Below, in pieces: positions 2,344 to 17,306 of a stretch of DNA of 64,000 bases (its first letter is position 1; the number at the start of each line of letters is the position of its first letter). The notes below the pieces were generated by a model. It ran no database searches. It was given only the letters and a program-made list of their open reading frames with translations, and had not been told where the DNA came from. The translations under genes and the position numbers were made by a program. The stretch is from Umbilicaria muhlenbergii (lineage: Eukaryota; Ascomycota; Lecanoromycetes; Umbilicariales; Umbilicariaceae): assembly GCA_000611775.1 (NCBI GenBank), contig KK106981.1:8541431-8605430 (forward strand), in the 5' to 3' direction.

Positions 2344-5300
2344 TTACATATTCGCCAGTTCCGTATCAATCTGTCTGTCCAAGAATGCCCTCCTCTCGCC
2401 AACCAATTCGGTCTGTAACCGCTGCTCCACCAGTGCGCGTACTAAACAAACGTCAGCATTAAAAAACCCCTAACCACGCCATAATGTAAGACAAACCTTG
2501 CTTCTTCGTAACATTATCCAAATCCACCTCCGCCAAACACGCACGAATCGCCTCCGCCACCGTGAAGTCATCCGGCCCCGCATTCATATTCTGGAAGTCC
2601 ACTGTACTGACCGGCCTACTTCCGCCATACCCGAGCGGACTGCGACTCTGCTGTCCCAGTGGAGGTGAGTAGAGGGGCATCAGATTCTCCGCGCTTTGCA
2701 TGTACGGCATGCTTTGTCTTTGGTTGAACGGGTTGGGACTGTCGCGGTATTGCTCGCCGCCCATCGACATGAGGGGCTGATTCGGTTGCGGCGTTGTGGG
2801 TTGGTCGGCGTAGGGGGTGAAGCTGGAGTAAGTGGATTGGCGACGCATGGCCGCCGGGGAGCGTGGAGGCATGTACTGAGGGCCCTGGGTTGGGAAGCCG
2901 GTCAGGATTGTGGACGCGGGTTTGACCGACGAGTACATGGAGCGTATATCGTCCATTTCGTAGCCATTCTCGCCGTAGCCGTCTTGATAGACCTTTTCCA
3001 TGCTGGTAGGGTTACCGCGACGACCCGGTAGGTTATTCGCAGCGGCATAGTCGTCCCAGCGCTGGAGTGGAATGCTTCGAGGATCGAAACCGTTGTCTTC
3101 TAGGGCCACGACTTGCTTGCCTTCCTTTTCTCCGAGGACGATGCGCGTGTTACCCCAGGTGAAGTTGTCCTGGTTCCAGAAAGAGAAGATGGGTAGGACG
3201 AAGGAGTAGATGGGGAAAGCAATGATATAAATAATCATCCAGCCTACATGTTGCCACTGCCTCTTAATGATGAAGATGAGCGCCTGCAGACCGTAGACCG
3301 CAGCAATCATGATGATCGATATCAACGGAAATTGCCCAGAGTGAGTTGCGACACGGTAGATGAGGTATCCAAGATAGACGCAAGTAGCGGGAAGGATAAT
3401 AGTACCGAAAAGATCAATAAACACCACGAAGCGCATGCTGAAACAGCAGAATCCACACAGGTCCTTGAGGAAAACCAATTCGGCCAAGTTGTGGATGGTC
3501 GAGTTGATCCAACGACGCCTTTGGGAGAGTAGCACGCCCCAAGTCTCAGGTGCGGCGGTGAGGGCATATGCGCCAGAATCAAATTTGTAAGACATGGCGG
3601 GGAAGTGCTTCGTCATTAACGTAGTGAGGTACCGATCTTCTCCAAGTGATAGGAGGTTCTTCTTGTGCAGCGTGTCTACTTCACAGTCGCTATACTCGTT
3701 GATAATCTTGTCGGATATAATCAGGGGTCGACCCTTGTCCGCTGTTCGGATCCGATACATACAGAAGCTGCACACTTGTTAACAGGAAGTAAGGGAGATG
3801 GTGTCTTGAGGGTTACATACCAACCGGGCAAACATGTAACCGATCCAAAGAGGGATTCGAAGGCTTTTGCAAGGTGATGGGAGATGAAGTATTCGTATAC
3901 TTGAATCATCGTCCACCAAGTCCTATCTTCATTCTCCAGACTGGTCTCGCCGCATATACCTGCGATTTTAGCATCGTTGGCACAGCTAGCGACGAGGCGA
4001 TTCAGAGAATCTTCTCTAACACTAGTGTCCGCATCAACCATCAGAAGGTATTCATAAAGCTCAGGATCCACACCAATGATGTTATTGATTTGATGGAACA
4101 TCTCAAGCTCAAGCGGCGACATCGGTGAGCGGTGGTGCACCCGGTTGAGGAAGCTCATGAGAAGGATTTGCGAGTCACGTTTGCCCCGGTTGCCAGGCTT
4201 GGGCTTCGTTTGCTCGGACTCTTTGCCCACTTTCACGACGACAATGTAGGGGACAACATTTCCCTCATACTCGTAGAGACCTGAGTACACTTTTCCATAA
4301 TTTAGCTGCTCGTTGCTTTGTCCGACAGATTTGAACGGTAATGCGGGAGGATCGATCTTAGGATCTACTCCGAGAATATCGAGTACGATTTTAGGTGTAG
4401 GTCTATCGTTACCGCCACCGACAATCATGCCGTCGCAGATCACGCAGATGAGCTTTCTCTTGTTGTCATATTGAAGGGCCGTCAGGGAGTCGAGACCCTT
4501 CCTTAGATGATCTTCTCCTTCGGTATAAGCTGGAACTTGGCAGATCACAAATTTGTCCTGGGCCGCCGGCCGTCGCTTGGATCCCAACTGGAGAGCAGCT
4601 AGAAACTTGACAAGAATGACGGTGCAGAGGACGACCGTGAAAGCCAACAGGATATAGTTGTTGACTTGACATCTCGGGGCGTCTCTGAAATCCGTCTTTC
4701 CCACATAGAAAACGTTGTTCATACAGTTCAAGCTGTTGGAGAAATTCGCCGTATTCTGCCACTGGCTTGTTATGTCGAGGCCTGCGTTGCTCTGTATGAG
4801 CGCTGTTACTTCGGGAGGGAAAAACTCATAAAGTGGGTAGCCGTTCTTTATCGTCAAAGTATTAAAGTAGTCTGTCAAATCATAAATCTTGCCGTTGATT
4901 ATCACCCACTGGCGGCCTTCGTCCTGCCCTTGTGAATTCACTGAAGCCTTGGTCGTAACCAGATCGCCTTTGTAAAATTCTTGAATCTTCGGCAGGAACG
5001 AGTTGGTATACCAATTAATGTCATGCAGTTTAGTCGTAGTCGTCGGTTGGTAGGTGGGCCCGGACGTATGGAGACCCTCGGGGTATATCGGTGTGTTATT
5101 AGCAATCAGCTGAACTATAGGATCCTTGACCAAACCAGGGCAAGCTATGGTAAGAGGTGGCTGAAAATACTCATCCAAATTCATGCCTGCAAAAGGGAGC
5201 ATATTCTGTTGAGTAGTCTGGATGGAGGTATCGCTATGCTGTACCTTCCAGAATTTGGAGATATCATAGACCTTCCCGTGGATACTGACGTAGAAATCGT

Positions 5301-7845
5301 TGGTCCCTTGGTGCTCGCCCACCTCTTTCTCATTCCAGGCTTTGTCGAAGTTCGGGCACAAGAGTCTGCCAAACGCCACAATGTAAAAAACCACGGTGGC
5401 GTTGAGCAGAAAGATAAGCAGCATGAGGACAATCTTTTCTCGCCAGGCCATGCGCACGTCGGGTCTTTTCATACGGCCAACGTAGCGCAGAAGGAAAGAT
5501 GGTATCCAGAAAGTGAGGGCCCAAACGAATGCGACCCATATGCGTCGAGACTTGGTTGTTGGCTGGGACGTTATATGCTTAGGCTGTCCTATTTCTGCAT
5601 CAAGTTCACCAGCAATCTTTTCAATCTCCGGATCGTTGTAGTCATACTTGGTTTCATCCCCTTTGGCACCAAGACCGTAGTCACCCGGCATAGTGTTGAG
5701 GGTACGTGCCATTGTCGGCGCGATTGAACGAGCACCGCCCATGGCGCTTTTGGCCAAGGTGGCAGAACTTTGGTGCCTTTGCAAGAGATCCTCTCGACTA
5801 ACATGGGGTGTCGACTCCTCGCTTACGGAAGGGAAAAATGGGTTGGTGCTGAGGCCTGGTACTGTAGATGAGTAGCCCGTAGGAACCGTCTCTCCCATCA
5901 TGCCGTAATCTGGAGGGCCCCACGTCGTATTTTCGAGAGGTTTGAGGTCGAGCATGCTCTCAGCCTCCCACCACGCTCCTTCTCGCATCCAAACGCGCTC
6001 GTGTCCAACGACAACCTCCCCATTGCTCCAGCCACGTTCCAAGATCCAGCTTTCGACACCATCCTTGCCTTCTTTGCAGCCCAAGCGAGCGTATCTAGTG
6101 CAGAACTCTTCAACATCAAAGTCTGCGGTGAAATCAAGATTCTTGTTGCGTCGATTGGCCCATTCTGGCAGTCTCCAAGCCCGCAGCTGTCGCGACACAG
6201 TACCTGCAGACCATGCCGAGGTCGTAGAGGCCAAGGTCGCGAGACTCGCGGGAGACTCGTCCGTAGGATGTAGAGAGAGGTGATACCAAACCCTGCTACT
6301 ACCGAGTGTTGCCGGGAGATCAAACCGGGGGTGTTTGCCAACGTTGACGCCTTCGCCTTGAACCGGATACAAGATCTTTCGCAGAAATCCGCCGTCCTCA
6401 GCTTCTGCGCCAACCTTCTCTAGCACACCCTCCCTACGGTCTCTCTCGTGCTCTCTCTCTCTACTTGTCGGGCCCCCTATGATTCCTAGATCTGCTGCCA
6501 CGTCCGAGACGGCATTGGTCATCTCCTTGATCACCGACAAACCCGCCCCGACAACTTCCACGCCGTCGTCTTTCATTTCTGCGTTGATGCCTATGGAGTC
6601 ATCGAAGACGCCACGAAGGGCTACTGCCTTGCCAAGTTCCGATCCTGGTATCTCTACGACTGTAAGGCTGACATTATCTCCATTTTCCTCGTCAGTCCTT
6701 GGAGTTCTTGCGCCAAAACGGCCATTGCCACTCTCACTCGACGAATCCGCATCCTTGGCTGTCTGAATTTCGGCAGCGATCGTTTGATTGGCTTTCAAAA
6801 GTACCCAGTCAACTAGAGCTTCGTAAATGCCGGCAACCAGGACTTCGCGCTCATGGGTACTGCACTTCTGCACCAGGACTTCAGGATCCAGACCCAAGAG
6901 GCCCCCGACATCTTCGCAAACGTCTTCGAGAGCCTCCTCATCAACCAAGAAGCCCAGAGTTTCTCCCAGTTTGAGTAAACCCGCAAGGACTGAAAGCAGG
7001 CTTCGATGTGCGGAGCCCTTGATGCCGATTGCTTTGAGCCCAGCCCGGAAGTCCTCTGCAGAAGCAGCATCATCGGCTGTCGGAAGGTATGATGGTGGGT
7101 CGAAGGTGTTGGACCTATTCAAAAGGGAGTACGCCGAGGGAGGCTTGAGGCCGAGAAACTCTCTCTCCGCAGGGGTCGACGCAGAGGTCAAGAGATAGTA
7201 GAACACATCAAATCCACGGTACCCTGCCTCCGATGGGATGTTGAGGAGGCCTCCAGATGTGTCGATACCCGAAGTGGAGATTGCCAAGGATGCAGCAGTG
7301 AGGCTGCCGGCGAGTGTCAGCGTGAAAGATGCGGCAAGAGCAGAATGCCTGGGAGCTGAAGGATTGAACGGCGTGATGGTATGCGTAAATGGTCGTAATA
7401 CTGCTAGTGCAGTGTGGAATGTTGATGGAACGGAAAGTGGCAAGGCTGAGATGAACGGTGACAATAACGAAGGGGTTGAATGATGCAGTGACCTAGATCA
7501 GACGACGTTAGTAAGGCAATGAGGAGCTTCAGACTCGATGTCGACCGACCCTAAGACTATGCAGCCGTCCTCCGCTCGTCGTCTCGCATGCTCCCACGCC
7601 TGCCGCGCCAGGTCTGTGTCCACCACGCCTCCCTGCCCACCGTCGCCGCCTGCCGTAAGCCAAGTGCTGACGACCAGACTGGTGCTCGCATCCAGACGAT
7701 ACGGCTGAGCGGAAGTGTAGATTGTGTGCAAAGTGTTGAGAAGAGTGGTGGTGGAGACCTGGGTGGCATGTTGTGCAGCGGAACGGAGGGCGGTAGGAGT
7801 CGAGGGGTTGGAAAACATGGACATGCGATTTGCGGTGCCGACCAT
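2344..7845 (-). CDS. csmB: Class VII chitin synthase with degenerate myosin motor-like domain
   Basis: Membrane glycosyltransferase that polymerises GlcNAc from UDP-GlcNAc into cell-wall chitin. Exons 7845-7550, 7492-3821, 3767-2497 and 2441-2344 give 1778 residues; the first intron has a perfect CTAAC branch site. The N-terminal myosin-like part has no GESGSGKT P-loop; the aligned stretch reads [16 protein letters not shown], as known for the CsmB group. Then follow a membrane segment, a cytochrome b5-like fold, the chitin synthase core with LPGCFCMYR and the catalytic QRRRW near residues 1405-1409, C-terminal membrane helices, and a DEK_C-like tail ending in TELANM. The start is the ATG at 7845; the frame opens slightly upstream only with TTG. 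It lies head-to-head with the class V gene, an arrangement known from Aspergillus and Fusarium. Confidence 0.95.
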
Positions 7846-9456: not shown

Positions 9457-12400
9457 ATGGCCCTTCATTCCATGGCTGGGAATAGCCCAGCTCACTCACA
9501 GCCTTCGTTACCGGCCTTGCCAAATCATCTACAGTCAGACACACATCTGACCGCTCATCTAGCCAGTCGGTAGGCTATCGCCTTTAGGGCCCACGCTTTA
9601 CACCCAAGTGCTGACAGAACCAATAGCTTCCACGTCTCTCTTCCTACCGCTCGTTTGTCCTCCCAAGCGCTGGTCTCGTTGAATACCTATGCATCGTCTG
9701 CGAAAGGTCCCAATGGCGGGAAGGAGGGAAGTGCAATGGGAGAGGTTGAGCTCTTGGCCGAAAGGGCTTGGGCGAGGCTAGGTGGCCGAGGTGAAAACCA
9801 GGCGGTTGTGTTTCTGTAAGCCCGGAGATAGCGACAAGGCAATCTTTAGCTACATGGAGACTGACACGGTGTGATTCATAGCGGGGAGTCGGGGTCTGGC
9901 AAGACAACTCTACGCTCTCACCTTCTTTCATCCTTCCTTTCCTTTTCCGCCACGCCTCTATCGACGAAGCTATCGCTTGCTACCTTCGTTTTCGATACCC
10001 TGACGACGACCAAGTCTGTCACTACGCCAACAGCATCAAAAGCAGGCCTCTTCTTCGAACTACAATATGACGCTTCATCGACGATGAACCCAACACTGAT
10101 CGGAGGCAAACTCCTTGATCATAGGCTAGAGCGTAGCAGGATAGCAACCGTGCCGACGGGCGAGCGAAGTTTCCACGTCCTATACTATTTGTTGGCGGGG
10201 ACGAGCGCTGCAGAGAAGGAACATCTGGGTCTGAGTGCTCCAAGTTTGATCTCAGAGCGTGGTATATCAACCGCCAACAGGGCGTCCGAAACCATCGGTC
10301 ATAAGAGATGGCGGTATTTAGGACACCCAACACAGCTGAAAGTTGGCATCAACGATAGTGAAGGATTTCAGCACTTCAAGACAGCATTACGAAAGCTCGA
10401 ATTTCCAAGGGAAGAGATAGCGGAGATCTGCCAGATCCTGGCTTGCATATTGCACATTGGACAACTGGAGTTCACGACCAGTGAGTCGACGACACCTGCT
10501 GCCGACGAAAGCGGCGGCTACTCCCATGAAGGTGGCGAAACGGTGACCGTAGTCCGGAATAAGGAAGTCCTCGGCATCGTTGCGGCTTTCCTAGGCTTGA
10601 GCACACAAGACCTTGAGACGAACCTTGGGTACAGGACCAAGACACTTCACCGTGAACGTGTCACAGTGTTGCTGGATCCAAAGGGCGCTCGTGAGAACGC
10701 CGACGAGCTAGCACGCACGTTATACTCTCTACTTGTGGCATATGTCATTGAGCAGATCAATCAAAGAACATGTGCTTTGGAGGACTCTGTTGCGAACACC
10801 ATCTCGATTGTTGACTTTCCGGGATTTGCGCAGTCTGCTTCGACTGGGTCTACGCTCGACCAGTTGCTTAACAACGCAGCTACCGAATCTCTCTACAACT
10901 TCTCCCTGCAAAGCTTCTTCGAGCGGAAAGCCGACTTATTGGAGAGTGAAGAAGTTAGCGTTGCGGCCACCAGCTATTTCGACAACACTGATGCTGTCCG
11001 TGGTTTGCTCAAGCATGGCAACGGACTTTTGAGTATCTTGGATGATCAAACTCGACGCGGCAGGACTGACTACCAGTTTTTGGAGAGTATCCGCAAGCGT
11101 TTCGAGAACAAGAATCCTGCTATAATAGCTGGCAGCGCTACACTTATACCACCTGGCAGCAATTTCCCTACACGTAATACCGCGGCGTCTTTCACTGTGA
11201 AGCACTTTGCTGGTGAGGTTGAATATCCAGTGAACGGCTTGGTCGAAGAGAACGGAGAGGTCATTGCAGGCGACCTGATGAATATGATCAATTCTACCAG
11301 GAGCGACTTTGTCCGAGAGCTCTTTGGGCAAGAGGCCCTCCAGACCATCGTGCATCCGAAGGAGAAGACTGCGATAATACAGGCCCAAGTCAGCTCGAAA
11401 CCTCTTCGCATGCCCAGTATGGCTCGGCGGCGAGGCCAGAGGCCGGCGAGACTCGCCGCACGCGCGGGAAGCGACGAGCACTCGGCAGAAGACGATATGG
11501 ATGACTTCAACGGTTCGACTGGCCGGGATCGGAAGGAACCTAGCGAAAGAAAGAAGACTGGTTCTCGTCCGGGTGGCCTTGATCAAGGCGCGTCAGGCCA
11601 ATTCTTGGTATCGCTTGACAACATCACCAAGTCGCTTTCTTTGCCGAACACAAACCCCTACTTCGTATTCTGCCTCAAGCCCAATGATCGTCGTATCGCC
11701 AATCAATTTGACAGCAAATGCGTCCGGACGCAAATCCAAACTTTCGGAATTGCGGAAATTAGCCAGCGTTTGCGGAATGCCGACTTCAGTCTCTTTCTTC
11801 CATTCGGGGAGTTCTTAGGCCTTGCTGAAGCCGAGGCGGTCCTTGTAGGTAGTGAACGGGAGAAGGCCGAGATGGTCCTTGACGAGAGAGGATGGCCAGG
11901 TAACGAAGCTCGGGTCGGCAGTACCGGGGTGTTCCTAAGTGAACGATGCTGGGCTGAAGTCGCCAAGCTCGGCGACAAAGGCTTCGTAACTGGAGGTTAT
12001 CCAGGCGGGGAAACAGAGGGCCGTGATGAGATATTCCGAGGTGATCGTGGAGTTTACGGGGACTCGAAGGTCAACCTGATATCGTCACAGGATGACTTCT
12101 TGTCTCCAGCGTACCGCGATGATGTCAAACAAGGCAGTCACTTCGGCAGCCGTGAAATGGATGCACGCTCAGATGCGGGAGCATCCGCGTTTCACTCTGG
12201 TGATATGTTTCACAACCTCGAAACGAGGGAGCATATGGCCGAAAAGGGGAACGAGAAGAAAATGGAGGAGGTAGATGACGTTGTAACTTCGGGTAGCCGA
12301 AAGCGATGGCTGGCTGTTGTATGGCTGTTGACGTTCTACGTCCCAGACTTCCTTATCAAGTGGATTGGGCGGATGAAGCGCCCAGACATTCGGACAGCTT

Positions 12401-15254
12401 GGCGGGAGAAGTTTGCCATCAACCTGCTGATCTGGTTTTCCTGTGGTCTCGTTATATTCTTCATCGTCATATTCCCTCAGGTCATCTGTCCGAAGCAGCA
12501 CGTCTATTCTGCAGCCGAACTCACATCGTACGATGGCAAGAAAGGACACGACTCCTTCCTTGCTATACGTGGTGAGGTCTTTGATCTGGGGGCCTTTATC
12601 CCCAGCCATTATCCTTCAATCGTTCCTCAGTCAGCGCTGCAGAAATACGCAGGCATAGACGCTACCGATCTCTTCCCAGTGCAGGTGTCGGCGCTTTGCC
12701 AAGGCACGACGGGATCAATCGACCCTACCGTGCAGCTCAGCTATACTCCTTCGAACATATCAGGGTCTGCAAGCGTCATTAGCAGCACCGATTTGAACGC
12801 GCGATATCACGACTTTAGATACTTTACCAATGACTCCAGGCCTGATTGGTACTGGGAGCAGATGATTATGCTCAGAGCGAACTACAAGAAGGGCGATGTC
12901 GGATATACTCCAAAGTACGTAAGCCAACTAGCAACCAAACAGAATTCAATCGCCATCTTGAACGGACGAGTATACGACTTCACCAGCTATGTAAAAGGCG
13001 GTCGTCGAACTGAGGCACCCCCAGGTCAAGAGGTGCCGTCCTCTGCCGATACCAACTTCATGAACCCTCTTGTGGTTAATCTCTTCCAGCAACGTGCTGG
13101 GCAAGATGTGACCAAATATTGGGAGACTCTGAACATCGACTCTGAGAAGCGGTCCCGTATGCAGAAGTGTCTTGATAACCTCTTCTTCGTTGGGGTGACG
13201 GATACAAGAAATTCGCCTAAGTGTCTATTTGCCCGATATATACTGCTCGCAGTTTCGATCTTTCTGTGCAGCGTCATTGGATTCAAATTCTTTGCAGCGC
13301 TACAATTTGGTGAACGGAACCTACCTGAGAACTTGGACAAGTTCATCATATGTCAAGTCCCCGCATACACAGAAGATGAGGAGTCTCTACGCCGTGCCAT
13401 CGATTCCGCCGCACGGATGAAGTATGACGACAAGCGCAAATTGCTCGTCATCGTCTGCGATGGAATGATCATTGGTCAAGGGAATGACAGGCCAACACCG
13501 AGGATCGTTCTAGATATCTTGGGTGTTTCGGAGACAGTCGATCCGGAGCCATTAAGCTTTGAGAGCTTGGGCGAGGGTATGAAGCAACACAACATGGGGA
13601 AGGTCTACTCCGGGCTGTACGAGGTGCAGGGCCACATCGTGCCATTCTTGGTGGTGGTGAAGATCGGGAAGCCTTCTGAAGTCTCGAGACCCGGTAACCG
13701 TGGCAAACGTGATTCTCAGATGATCATCATGCGATTTCTGAACCGCGTCCACTACAATCACCCAATGACGCCACTCGAATTGGAAATGCATCATCAGATA
13801 CGGAACATTATCGGAGTCAATCCGACCTTCTACGAGTTCATGCTACAAATCGACGCCGATACTGTTGTGGCTCCCGACTCAGCCACGCGTATGGTAGCAG
13901 CATTCTTGCACGACACCAGACTAATCGGCATATGTGGGGAAACCGCACTCACCAATGCCAAATCCTCCTTCATCACTATGATTCAGGTTTATGAGTACTA
14001 CATATCCCATAACCTTACGAAAGCTTTCGAGAGCTTGTTTGGATCCGTTACGTGTCTTCCAGGTTGCTTCAGTATGTATCGCATACGCGCTGCAGAAACA
14101 GGAAAGCCACTTTTCGTCAGTAAGGAGATTATTGAATCGTATTCCCAAGTCCGGGTCGACACTCTCCACATGAAGAACCTGCTACATCTGGGAGAGGATC
14201 GATACTTGACTACCCTGCTACTGAAGCATCACTCGAAGTACAAGACTAAGTATATCTTCAATGCACATGCCTGGACCGTCGCACCCGAGAGTTGGAAGAT
14301 TTTCTTGTCACAACGCCGAAGATGGATCAACTCGACTGTACACAACCTTATTGAGCTTATTCCGCTCCAACAGCTGTGCGGTTTCTGTTGTTTCAGTATG
14401 CGATTTGTCGTCTTCCTCGACCTACTCAGCACGATTGTTGCACCGGTGACCGTGGCCTACATTGCCTATCTGATCGTCTTAATCGCCATGAACTCAACCG
14501 TCATACCTTTGACAGCTTTCATTCTCCTTGGTGCGATTTATGGTCTCCAAGCGATCATCTTTATCTTGCGACGAAAGTGGGAGATGATTGGATGGATGAT
14601 CATCTATATCCTAGCCATGCCCGTTTTCTCTCTTGGCCTGCCACTATACGCGTTCTGGCACATGGACGACTTTTCATGGGGTAGCACCCGTGTCGTCACC
14701 GGCGAGAAAGGCAGGAAAGTCGTCATATCGGACGAAGGAAAATTCGACCCAGCGTCCATTCCAAAAAAGAGATGGGAAGACTGGCAAGCCGAGCTCTGGG
14801 AAGACGCCAAGACTCAACGAGACGATCGCTCGGAGGTGTCCGGGTTTTCGTACGGCACAAAATCCTACCATCCCGCGCAATCCGAATACGCCTTCCCGCA
14901 CGCGACCAACATGTCGCACATGGAGTTGCCGAGATACGGATCCCGCATGTCTCTCGTGCCCTCGGATGTCATGTCGCGGGGCTACCCCGAGAACGTGGAG
15001 ATGGCGGATCTTTCGGGTCTGCCGACCGATGATGCGATATTAGCGGAGATACGAGATATTCTCAAGACGGCGGATTTGATGACGGTGACGAAGAAGAGTA
15101 TCAAGATGGAGTTGGAGAGGCGGTTTGGTGTTAGTTTGGAGGCCAGGAAGAGTTATATTGGATCTGGTAAGTGACTTGTTTTGCGTAGTCGGTTTAGGGG
15201 TTGGTACTGATTTATGTTATAGCTACGGAAGCGATCTTGTCCGGACAGCTTTGA
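9457..15254 (+). CDS. csmA: Class V chitin synthase with myosin motor-like domain
   Basis: Makes hyphal-wall chitin at growing tips; the fused myosin-like domain is known to bind actin and hold the enzyme at the apex. Exons 9457-9569, 9627-9815, 9882-15166 and 15223-15254 (introns 57, 66 and 56 bp) give 1872 residues, the usual length. Residues 1-100 carry the family start ([13 protein letters not shown], then [15 protein letters not shown]). The P-loop GESGSGKT is at 102-109. Membrane segments lie near 905-970, a cytochrome b5-like region near 985-1010, another segment near 1216-1240, the catalytic core with LPGCFSMYR and QRRRW at about 1578-1582, C-terminal helices from about 1598, and DEK_C near 1816-1860. 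The last intron replaces an unspliced SGK ending with the conserved [10 protein letters not shown] tail, which supports it. Confidence 0.96.
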
Positions 15255-17133
15255 GCGCGTTGGTATGGAGATGTATATTCCTTGGAGTGAGTGGCATTAG
15301 CGGTGGTGGCATTGAGATGGAGTCAAGGGACGGGGTGTAATGATGGGATTTCTGGGCTCATTGGAGAAGGATAGGAAAAGAGTTGTCCGGAGTTAGGGTG
15401 CTGGAAATGTTTCTTTTGGCACGCACCGGGGTTCCTGTAGCATCTATTTAGGAGCCGTTTTGCATTTGAATGTCACATAGCTTGTTACTAATTGACGTCT
15501 ATATTTCATTCCTTTTCCTTTTCACAGACCCATACATGTACTAGTTGAAGAGGGCCTCCAGTGCACAATGGACCACCATCGCGATCATTATGATCCTCCG
15601 CTTCGAGTTTTGGTGGTACTACCATCCATCGCACCCACCCATGCACCCATCTACTCGCCATGGGCCTCCAGCGCACATGATCGAAGATCGTCGATTAGGT
15701 TATACCCCTTCGCCACTACAGCACCAAGGAACCCTCCGCGGAACCCTCTGACGCCCTGTGGAACCTGACACAGACGGACCTGGCAGCCCTTGCTCGGATA
15801 TGGAGATACACAATCTCTTTTCAAGACTGAATATGTAGGACGAGCCCTTCTTTATATAAAAAGGTGGTGCGTGGAGGTTCTTCAATGATTATGGATAGCG
15901 CAAGGGGCACACGGTCGAGGAAGCTAAGAAACTATACAGCAAAGCTAGTATACCTGGATGAGATTAGACAGAGGGGCCAGCGAGAGAATGCTCAACCATC
16001 AGAATATGAGTGCGGGAAGCGAACGAAAGAACAGGGGAACCGCCGGAGGAGGAATGAGAACTTGGGTCTTGCTCTCAAATTAAGACAATCTCAAAACCCA
16101 CCAATAAAGCTAAGGCTGACGCGAGCACTTCCATGGCAAAGTATCCGCCATAAGGATGCAACGTGAGGAAAGAGTAAGTACATACAGAAGATCAAAAATA
16201 AAAGAGCACGGGGAACAGAAGCACAACAATTCAGCAACTAGAGCAACAACCCTACAACCGCTACCCACAACCCCCCCAACAAACCACCTTCCCCCCTAAA
16301 GCCAAACCCAAGCACAGCGCACAATCACAGCGACAACACCCAACTCCATCAAAGCCACTAAAGCAAGAAGAATCACATCCCACCCCACCTCAACGCCCTA
16401 CGTCACAACCCTCGCTCGACAAATCTCCCCAGCGCTAAGCCTGCGCACACAAAACATGTACAGAATAGCAGCGAAGCGCCTCAAAGCTCTACAACACGGT
16501 CACGCCTCGAACATCTGCAAGAACCACACAACAACTAGATCTCCGGCTGGGCTAGGCAACGGTCCAGAGTAAACCGTGTCGAGTCTCGTGGTAGACAAGC
16601 GGCGTGCACAATCGTGTTGCACGTTACCAGCACCCGCTTGCAAAGTGCTACCCGCAGAACTCAAGCATATCAACAAGTGGAGGAAAAGAAACCAACGGGA
16701 ATTGCCTCGGTAACAGTGAGTGAAGCGGGAACAGCGCAAACTTGAAATCTGCCCCCCCCTCCCAGGGTCTGAGTTGTAATTTGTAGAGGATGCTTCGGGT
16801 GCGGCGTCGGTCTGGGTTCCTTGGAACAGGATGTCATAGAGGGTGAGAATCCTGTATGAGACTGGCAATCTAGCCCGTGTGAAGCTCCTTCAACGAGTTG
16901 AGTTGATTGAGAATGCAGCTCTAAATGGGTGGTGAATTTCATCGCCCACTACATGATGATTGAGAGGTAAGAAATGTTAGTCGTAAAAGTGTCAGTAGCA
17001 GATTGCGCATTTGCAAAATATCAGTGGCGGATCGTAACGAGCTGGGAAGCACAGGAAGGCCCTTCAACTTGATCCCAAGCAACCCCAGTCTTTGACTGCA
17101 ATAAAACAAACAGATACCAGAGCCCTCGGGGGC
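15255..17133. other. Intergenic region with no recognised gene
   Basis: About 1.9 kb between the class V chitin synthase and the tRNA gene. It contains a C/A-rich stretch near 16230-16400 and several short frames without family features. Nothing else was recognised. Confidence 0.5.
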
Positions 17134-17139
17134 AAAAAA
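17134..17139 (-). terminator. RNA polymerase III T-run terminator of tRNA-Leu
   Basis: A run of six T on the minus strand starts three bases after the tRNA discriminator base, the position expected of a polymerase III terminator. Confidence 0.85.
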
Positions 17140-17141
17140 GA

Positions 17142-17306
17142 TGATGAGAGTGGGACTCGAACCCACGCCACTTTCGTGACCAGGAATCAGATGATTGTAT
17201 TAAGGTGTGACCTTAACCTGGCGCCATCTGTGTGGACTGTTAATATTGGAGACTTCTTGGAAATTGGCTGTTGAGGATAACTTACAACCAACTCGGCCAT
17301 CTCACC
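17142..17306 (-). tRNA. tRNA-Leu(AAG) with two interruptions
   Basis: Acceptor halves GGTGAGA and TCTCATC pair fully (one G:T), with discriminator A. The A box TGGCCGAGTTGG and B box GGTTCGAGTCC match consensus. The T arm is GTGGG-TTCGAGT-CCCAC, the variable arm TCAC-GAAA-GTGG is long as required for leucine, and the anticodon stem CCAGG/CCTGG encloses a loop reading TTAAGG, giving anticodon AAG. An intron of about 25 nt follows position 37, and its CCTTAA pairs with the anticodon loop, as usual for nuclear tRNA introns. A second, 58-bp insert (17228-17285) splits the D-loop after GGTT. Without both inserts the product is 82 nt with a normal D arm (GCC/GGC). Either a working gene with an exotic second intron or an insertion-killed copy. 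Confidence 0.9.
17228..17285 (-). other. 58-bp spliceosomal-intron-like insert in the tRNA D-loop
   Basis: On the minus strand the insert starts GTAAGTTATCC and ends CCACACAG, with ATTAACA about 14 nt before the end as a branch-like site. Length, 5' splice consensus and branch spacing match the protein-gene introns in this window (46-66 bp). Precise removal restores a standard leucine D-loop. It lies just 3' of an uninterrupted A box, so polymerase III recognition need not be lost. No bulge-helix-bulge at its ends was evident by eye. Confidence 0.75.

Follow-up and report, generated by a model that had tools for sequence, protein, structure and literature searches.

The tRNA-Leu(AAG) gene described here from the lichen fungus Umbilicaria muehlenbergii is very probably a working nuclear gene, and the only one found for its anticodon, with a U2-type spliceosomal intron in the D-loop in addition to an intron of the tRNA endonuclease type. 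It lies in a stretch of 64,000 nt, referred to below as the window, and is part of a genome-wide set in which 24 of 41 recognised tRNA genes carry inserts of the same kind. If this reading of the sequences holds, it is likely that the majority of the tRNA genes recognised, including the only initiator tRNA-Met and tRNA-Tyr genes found, need the spliceosome, up to four times per gene. Translation would then be directly dependent on the spliceosome, and the tRNA genes would document, in a living genome, how spliceosomal introns have been gained again and again outside protein genes.

A tRNA-Leu(AAG) gene with two kinds of intron

In the raw 64,000-nt window the gene is not called by ARAGORN, and the whole-model Rfam cmscan match to it, which reaches 33.3 bits against a gathering score of 29, includes two large insertions. 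Once the 58-nt insert is removed, ARAGORN reports a tRNA-Leu(aag) with a 25-nt intron, and removal of both introns leaves an 82-nt type II leucine tRNA with the anticodon AAG and A73. An earlier sequence-only reading had described a tRNA-Leu(AAG) gene with an anticodon intron and a D-loop insert, the exact removal of which restores an 82-nt leucine tRNA, and both statements are borne out by the Rfam match, the ARAGORN call and the reconstruction. The features by which a functional nuclear tRNA-Leu(AAG) is recognised at the sequence level (type II cloverleaf, AAG, A73, B box and T-run) are all present, the B box in the T-arm of exon 3 reading GGTTCGAGTCC (Table 1).

The 25-nt intron contains a CCTTAA (17205-17200) complementary to the TTAAGG at 17216-17211. 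The 58-nt insert was also considered as a canonical position 37/38 tRNA intron, an assignment rejected on account of its location in the D-loop; the separate 25-nt intron does fit that role. The insert begins with a GTAAGT 5' splice site and ends with CAG. The TTAAC branch-like site and the T6 terminator reported earlier are both there, with the corrections that the branch A lies 12 nt from the insert end instead of 14, and that the T-run starts only after two other bases. For this gene, 24 different removals tie at the top cloverleaf score, one of which is GT-AG and has no shifted equivalent, so the borders of the insert are left undecided by the structure of this gene alone. The insert is nevertheless beyond chance, because GTAAGT, the branch site and CAG are found there and the same signature recurs in 23 other tRNA genes.

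The gene would be transcribed, most likely by RNA polymerase III (Pol III), as the B box and the T-run suggest. The nuclear spliceosome would then remove the 58-nt intron by intron definition, using GTAAGT, TTAAC with its A at 12 nt, and CAG. The restored pre-tRNA would fold, after which the tRNA endonuclease and ligase would excise the 25-nt anticodon intron, giving a tRNA that may be used in translation.

Table 1. Features of the window: the tRNA-Leu(AAG) gene, its neighbour, and the protein genes and mRNA introns used for comparison
Feature	Position	Strand	Evidence
tRNA-Leu(AAG) gene, unspliced, 165 nt	17142..17306	-	Rfam RF00005, 33.3 bits; cloverleaf once introns removed
Exon 1, 21 nt: acceptor 5' strand, positions 8-9, D-stem 5' strand, most of D-loop; 3' end ...GAGTTGGTT	17286..17306	-	sequence
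Spliceosomal-type intron, 58 nt, in D-loop after nt 8 of the 9-nt loop, GTAAGT...ACACAG	17228..17285	-	sequence; single genome copy
5' splice site GTAAGT of 58-nt intron	17280..17285	-	sequence
Branch site TTAAC; branch A = 17240, 12 nt from intron end	17239..17243	-	sequence
3' splice site CAG of 58-nt intron	17228..17230	-	sequence
Exon 2, 17 nt: remaining D-arm, anticodon stem 5' strand, anticodon AAG, G37	17211..17227	-	sequence
Conventional anticodon intron, 25 nt, after position 37	17186..17210	-	sequence; ARAGORN i(39,25) once 58-nt insert removed
Exon 3, 44 nt: position 38, anticodon stem 3' strand, 13-nt variable arm, T-arm, acceptor 3' strand, A73	17142..17185	-	sequence
T6 run, Pol III-type terminator	17134..17139	-	sequence
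Eukaryotic LSU rRNA piece	16651-16981	+	Rfam, 180.4 bits, model 24-358 of 3401
Chitin synthase gene, myosin-head and cytochrome b5-like domains	2462-7464	-	conserved protein
Chitin synthase gene, myosin-head and cytochrome b5-like domains	9871-15222	+	conserved protein
mRNA intron, chitin synthase gene	15167-15222	+	placed by eye
mRNA intron, chitin synthase gene	3820-3768	-	placed by eye
mRNA intron, glycogen phosphorylase gene	51235-51176	-	placed by eye
mRNA intron, glycogen phosphorylase gene	49505-49453	-	placed by eye

A piece of eukaryotic LSU rRNA adjoins the tRNA gene and is probably an isolated rDNA fragment, since no further rRNA match is listed in the window. A comparison of the locus with a phage collection gave no match.

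Spliceosomal-type inserts across the tRNA genes

The genome surveyed comprises 34,788,950 bases (34.79 Mb) in 7 contigs. The search for tRNA genes combined Rfam with B-box patterns, and cloverleafs were scored with and without removal of a GT-AG stretch; some multi-intron loci were worked out by eye. A genome-wide Rfam tRNA scan (at least 29 matches, 63 of 1258 candidates scored) missed the window gene. The B-box pattern GGTTCRANYCC occurs at 248 sites, against 200 in a reversed control, and 100 of the 248 places were listed. The patterns GGTTCGANTCC (76 sites, 67 in the reversed control) and GGTTCGANCCC (53 and 48) together give 129 places, 18 of them already covered, 3 representing the second strand of a palindrome and 108 examined. 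For GGTTCAANTCC, with 75 sites against 41, 73 places were examined and two neighbouring ones omitted; despite this excess, recognised tRNA genes stand at few of the examined sites. In all, 180 sequence pieces around B-box sites, plus two more, were examined, one later batch of 60 yielding a single additional tRNA gene.

The resulting 41 recognised tRNA genes are a lower bound, as other B-box types, including GGTTCAANCCC, fall outside the survey; genes for Cys, Trp and elongator Met tRNAs are among the isoacceptors not found in this incomplete survey. Spliceosomal-type inserts outside the anticodon site are present in 24 of the 41, one to four in each and 33 in total, and a conventional anticodon intron also occurs in 17 of these 24. 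One insert is found in the genes for Leu(AAG), Leu(CAG), Phe (two genes), Thr(TGT), Thr(AGT), Arg(ACG), Gln(TTG), Ala(AGC) (two), Ala(CGC), Ser(AGA), Gly(CCC), Asp, Lys(CTT) and Ile(AAT) (two). Two inserts are found in the second Arg(ACG) gene, whose 5' end is outside the fetched piece, and in those for initiator Met, Ser(GCT) (one of them GC-AG), the second Asp, Tyr and Pro(TGG), while the second Lys(CTT) gene has four. The 17 genes without an insert outside the anticodon site are those for Gly(TCC), His, Lys(TTT), Arg(TCG), Arg(TCT), Arg(CCG), Arg(CCT), Glu(CTC), Asn (two genes), Ser(TGA), Gly(GCC) (three), Leu(TAG), Val(TAC) and Pro(CGG).

The four-insert tRNA-Lys(CTT) gene (L131, G000:C5:1571922-1572432) also holds a 9-nt anticodon intron; its first two exons measure 4 and 5 nt, and one of its introns contains a T5.

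Intron borders and splice signals

In the reconstructed genes the acceptor, D-, anticodon and T-stems pair, the acceptor of L224 being outside the view. When any 46 to 72 nt may be removed and dinucleotides are ignored, a cloverleaf is restored at 20 B-box sites. At 17 of these a GT-AG removal is within 1 point of the best, compared with 7 for the next commonest pairs, and the remaining three are two odd hairpin units (L042 and L092) and the Tyr gene, which needs two removals. Border shifts that leave the product unchanged allow 1 to 4 choices, among which there is exactly one GT-AG or GC-AG for each of 26 introns. In 10 of these 26 the chosen removal is outscored, by up to 1 point, by another one, so that not all borders are settled by structure. 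A reading as a tRNA that has a long anticodon intron, without any GT-AG removal, does nearly as well for two genes: L020 (27.4 versus 29.9) and L225 (27.2 versus 30.1).

The effect of splicing in silico on gene prediction was judged on 21 genes (L131, L224 and L225 left out). From the unspliced sequences ARAGORN calls a tRNA in 12 of the 21, two of them with the assigned anticodon. From the spliced ones it calls a tRNA in all 21, with the assigned anticodon in 15 and a differing one in six (L020, L023, L024, L026, L029 and L151). Because most unspliced genes are mislabelled or missed in this way, the totals of tRNA genes for such genomes may be underestimates.

The 33 inserts measure 48 to 69 nt, with a mean of 54.2 nt. 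Their ends are GT-AG in 32 cases and GC-AG in one, GT-AG having been a search criterion for part of the inserts. The commonest 5' hexamer is GTAAGT (10 inserts), followed by GTGAGT (7) and GTAAGC (4), and the 3' ends are CAG (20), TAG (8) and AAG (5). A YTNA motif with its A 10 to 13 nt from the end is present in all 33, compared with a mean of 6.3 and a maximum of 16 in 5000 shuffles of the interiors. This count takes in 10 introns whose borders were set by eye or with the branch motif already in mind: the two of Ser(GCT), the second of Pro(TGG), and all those of L131, L224 and L225. The stricter CTNA is found in 28 of the 33 (shuffles: mean 3.2, maximum 12). Among the 23 introns delimited without regard to the branch motif, all 23 carry YTNA, with a mean of 4.5 and a maximum of 12 in 5000 shuffles.

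The sequence-only reading had taken the D-loop insert for a spliceosomal intron that entered a Pol III gene next to an endonuclease intron. The recurrence of such introns, 33 in 24 of 41 tRNA genes, supports this at the level of sequence.

Comparison with mRNA introns of the window

The mRNA introns used for comparison come from a glycogen phosphorylase gene and from two chitin synthase genes, which are divergently placed in the window. These introns are 53 to 60 nt long, start with GTAAGT, GTATGT or GTACGT and have the branch A 11 to 12 nt from their end; the sample consists of four only, positioned by means of reading frames and with an eye to the branch motif. At one of the chitin synthase borders eight candidates keep the frame open, and the one chosen is of typical length and has a branch motif. 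Counting motifs of mRNA introns across the window gives a weak signal, with 10 matches versus 4 in a reversed control. Within this four-intron sample, the tRNA inserts match the mRNA introns of their host in size and signals.

Intron positions, promoter elements and gene pairs

The insert sites are spread over the tRNA between 4/5 (acceptor stem) and 53/54 (T-arm). In 9 of the 24 genes an intron falls inside positions 8-19, the A-box region, and can be expected to make the A box less effective; the genes concerned are those for Tyr, Thr-AGT, initiator Met, Ser-GCT, Ser-AGA, one Ala-AGC, both Lys-CTT and the second Arg-ACG. The second Ile and second Arg genes (L225 and L224) have an intron at 53/54, the last G of which keeps the GTTCGA core of the B box. 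Upstream, a TATAWW motif at -45 to -16 is found in 16 of 38 genes, versus a mean of 5.7 and a maximum of 13 in shuffled sequences, a count in which the starts of L022 and L024 are misplaced and the upstream pieces of these two are not true flanks. Such elements occur at this distance in the Pol III tRNA genes of some organisms. Downstream of the window gene, and of many of the others, there is a T-run.

Among six pairs of genes with the same anticodon, only one, Phe, has an intron site in common. The exons of the Phe pair are identical at 72 of 73 positions and the introns at 42 of 50, and their flanks of 200 nt score 85 and 79 when gaps are subtracted from matches. As the other five pairs do not share a site, introns were probably gained repeatedly after tRNA gene duplication.

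Genes for which splicing would be indispensable

A concatenated query of 17 mature tRNAs identifies one place each in the genome for initiator Met and Tyr, and the genes at both places carry two spliceosomal-type introns. The second Asp gene (L059), 68/72 identical to the query and split by an intron, escaped the same DNA search, and for this reason "one place each" argues against intact close copies and nothing more. Should the assembly be complete, the initiator Met and Tyr tRNAs could not be made without removal of two spliceosomal-type introns each. The mature tRNA-Leu(AAG), compared with the genome at E values up to 10, matches only itself.

Alternative explanations

The interrupted genes could be pseudogenes hit by intron-like insertions, with intact copies elsewhere that the assembly may have lost or collapsed. 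Spare intact copies could be absent from the genome sequence, a short-read draft (PMC3999499), some tRNA-like units are damaged or odd (L007, L019 and L030), and a DNA search can miss split relatives, as the case of L059 illustrates. Against this stand the pairing of the stems in the reconstructed genes, the conservation of the Phe exons far above their flanks, the single places for initiator Met and Tyr, and the normal assembly of intron-free single genes of other isoacceptors. Other intact AAG genes, which the sequence-only reading had named, together with a lack of mature tRNA from this gene, as a sign that the window gene is a dead copy, did not turn up in the genome search, and decay of the whole set is distinctly unlikely. 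A different possibility concerns the polymerase: the tRNAs might be transcribed by Pol II within longer RNAs, in which case the inserts would be ordinary Pol II introns, taken out ahead of tRNA processing. The usual coupling of spliceosomal splicing to Pol II and the introns within positions 8-19 favour this view; the kept B boxes, the T-runs and the upstream TATAWW excess argue for Pol III instead and make Pol II transcription unlikely. This alternative alters the polymerase and not the claim about splicing.

The remaining alternatives concern the nature of the inserts. Ectopic and permuted tRNA introns with a bulge-helix-bulge exist in other organisms, and the enzyme that removes the anticodon intron might also remove the inserts; two of 26 inserts do show three of the four central pairs and at least two outer pairs. 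However, the full motif, a four-pair central helix between two three-base bulges, occurs in none of the 26, where 0.56 would be expected, and after the addition of seven more inserts in none of the 32 testable among 33. Nor does the endonuclease require GT-AG ends or a branch motif at a constant spacing. The finding that was to speak against a spliceosomal origin, a bulge-helix-bulge at the ends of the insert, was thus looked for and not found, and removal by the endonuclease is barely credible. Recent mobile introns resembling introners would account for the many different tRNA sites occupied and for the repeated gain to which the gene pairs point. An introner-like insertion as in Dothideomycetes had been offered as a possibility from the sequence, to be checked by a search for near-identical copies of the 58-bp insert; the search of the whole genome, which covered the window insert, found no second copy of it, and the host is a lichen former, not a Dothideomycete. 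In pairwise comparisons of 26 introns, the scores stay within the shuffle range of 12 to 16 (at most 15) with the exception of the Phe pair, at 34, and recent mobility of this kind is highly improbable. Degenerate group I introns of lichen fungi were considered as well and rejected. Group I introns follow a U and end in G, a rule that the window insert taken alone fits, and only 5 of the 33 inserts have T as the preceding exon base. A U2-type spliceosomal intron in a functional, probably Pol III-transcribed tRNA gene accounts best for the splice signals and their recurrence.

Relation to known introns and implications

Nuclear tRNA introns are described as the task of the tRNA endonuclease and ligase. 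Canonical position-37 introns are represented here by the 25-nt intron of the window gene and by those of 17 of the 24 genes, while the tRNA inserts lie at other places and have splice sites and a branch site. The tRNA genes of archaea and some red algae have ectopic bulge-helix-bulge introns, in the D-arm as well, which resemble the inserts in lying outside the anticodon loop and differ in the full bulge-helix-bulge, absent here. Introners share with the present set the many gains in one genome, but recent copies were not found among the introns compared.

Spliceosomal introns are also present in some U6 snRNA genes. Fungal U3 snoRNA genes carry them too, and U3 is termed a polymerase III gene in PMC5832005. 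Like the tRNA inserts, these are spliceosomal introns in small non-coding RNA genes, Pol III ones included; they concern one RNA each, whereas here many tRNA genes are affected and the single U6 gene found in the genome is intronless. The nuclear rDNA of lichen-forming ascomycetes has ectopic spliceosomal introns, reported to be removed (PMC8527467, citing Bhattacharya et al. 2000). That source gives a 57-bp example from Cladonia grayi and states that yeast can splice one lichen rDNA intron from rRNA. Both sets consist of short spliceosomal introns in genes of lichen fungi that are not transcribed by Pol II, and the difference is that the rDNA introns interrupt Pol I rRNA genes without a tRNA-endonuclease intron, whereas those described here are spread over many different tRNA genes.

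In an open-access subset of the literature, preprints excluded, no paper on spliceosomal introns in tRNA genes was found. By every feature tested on the sequence the introns look spliceosomal, and the host tRNA genes are regarded here as a new context for such introns. Both splicing systems would be needed for one and the same pre-tRNA, and in this respect the core of the sequence-only reading, two systems acting on one transcript, holds on the sequence. This raises the questions of how the spliceosome gains access to such transcripts, how it competes with the folding of the tRNA, how genes with an intron-cut A box are transcribed, and why a lichen fungus keeps these introns. The set is suited to the study of spliceosomal intron gain, since tRNA structure helps to fix the borders without reading frames and same-anticodon copies mostly differ in their sites. 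Umbilicaria muehlenbergii can be transformed (PMC3999499), which makes tests of splicing feasible.

Other tRNA-like units

Left out of the 41 genes are six damaged or unresolved tRNA-like units (L007, L019, L030, L042, L085 and L092) and the weak or repeat-like candidates L120, L145 and L147. Two of the former, L042 and L092, lie on the minus strand and have acceptor, D- and T-arms. Where the anticodon loop should be, both have a long paired hairpin, and no anticodon can be clearly made out. The hairpin stems of the two differ in their letters, and the pairing is kept.
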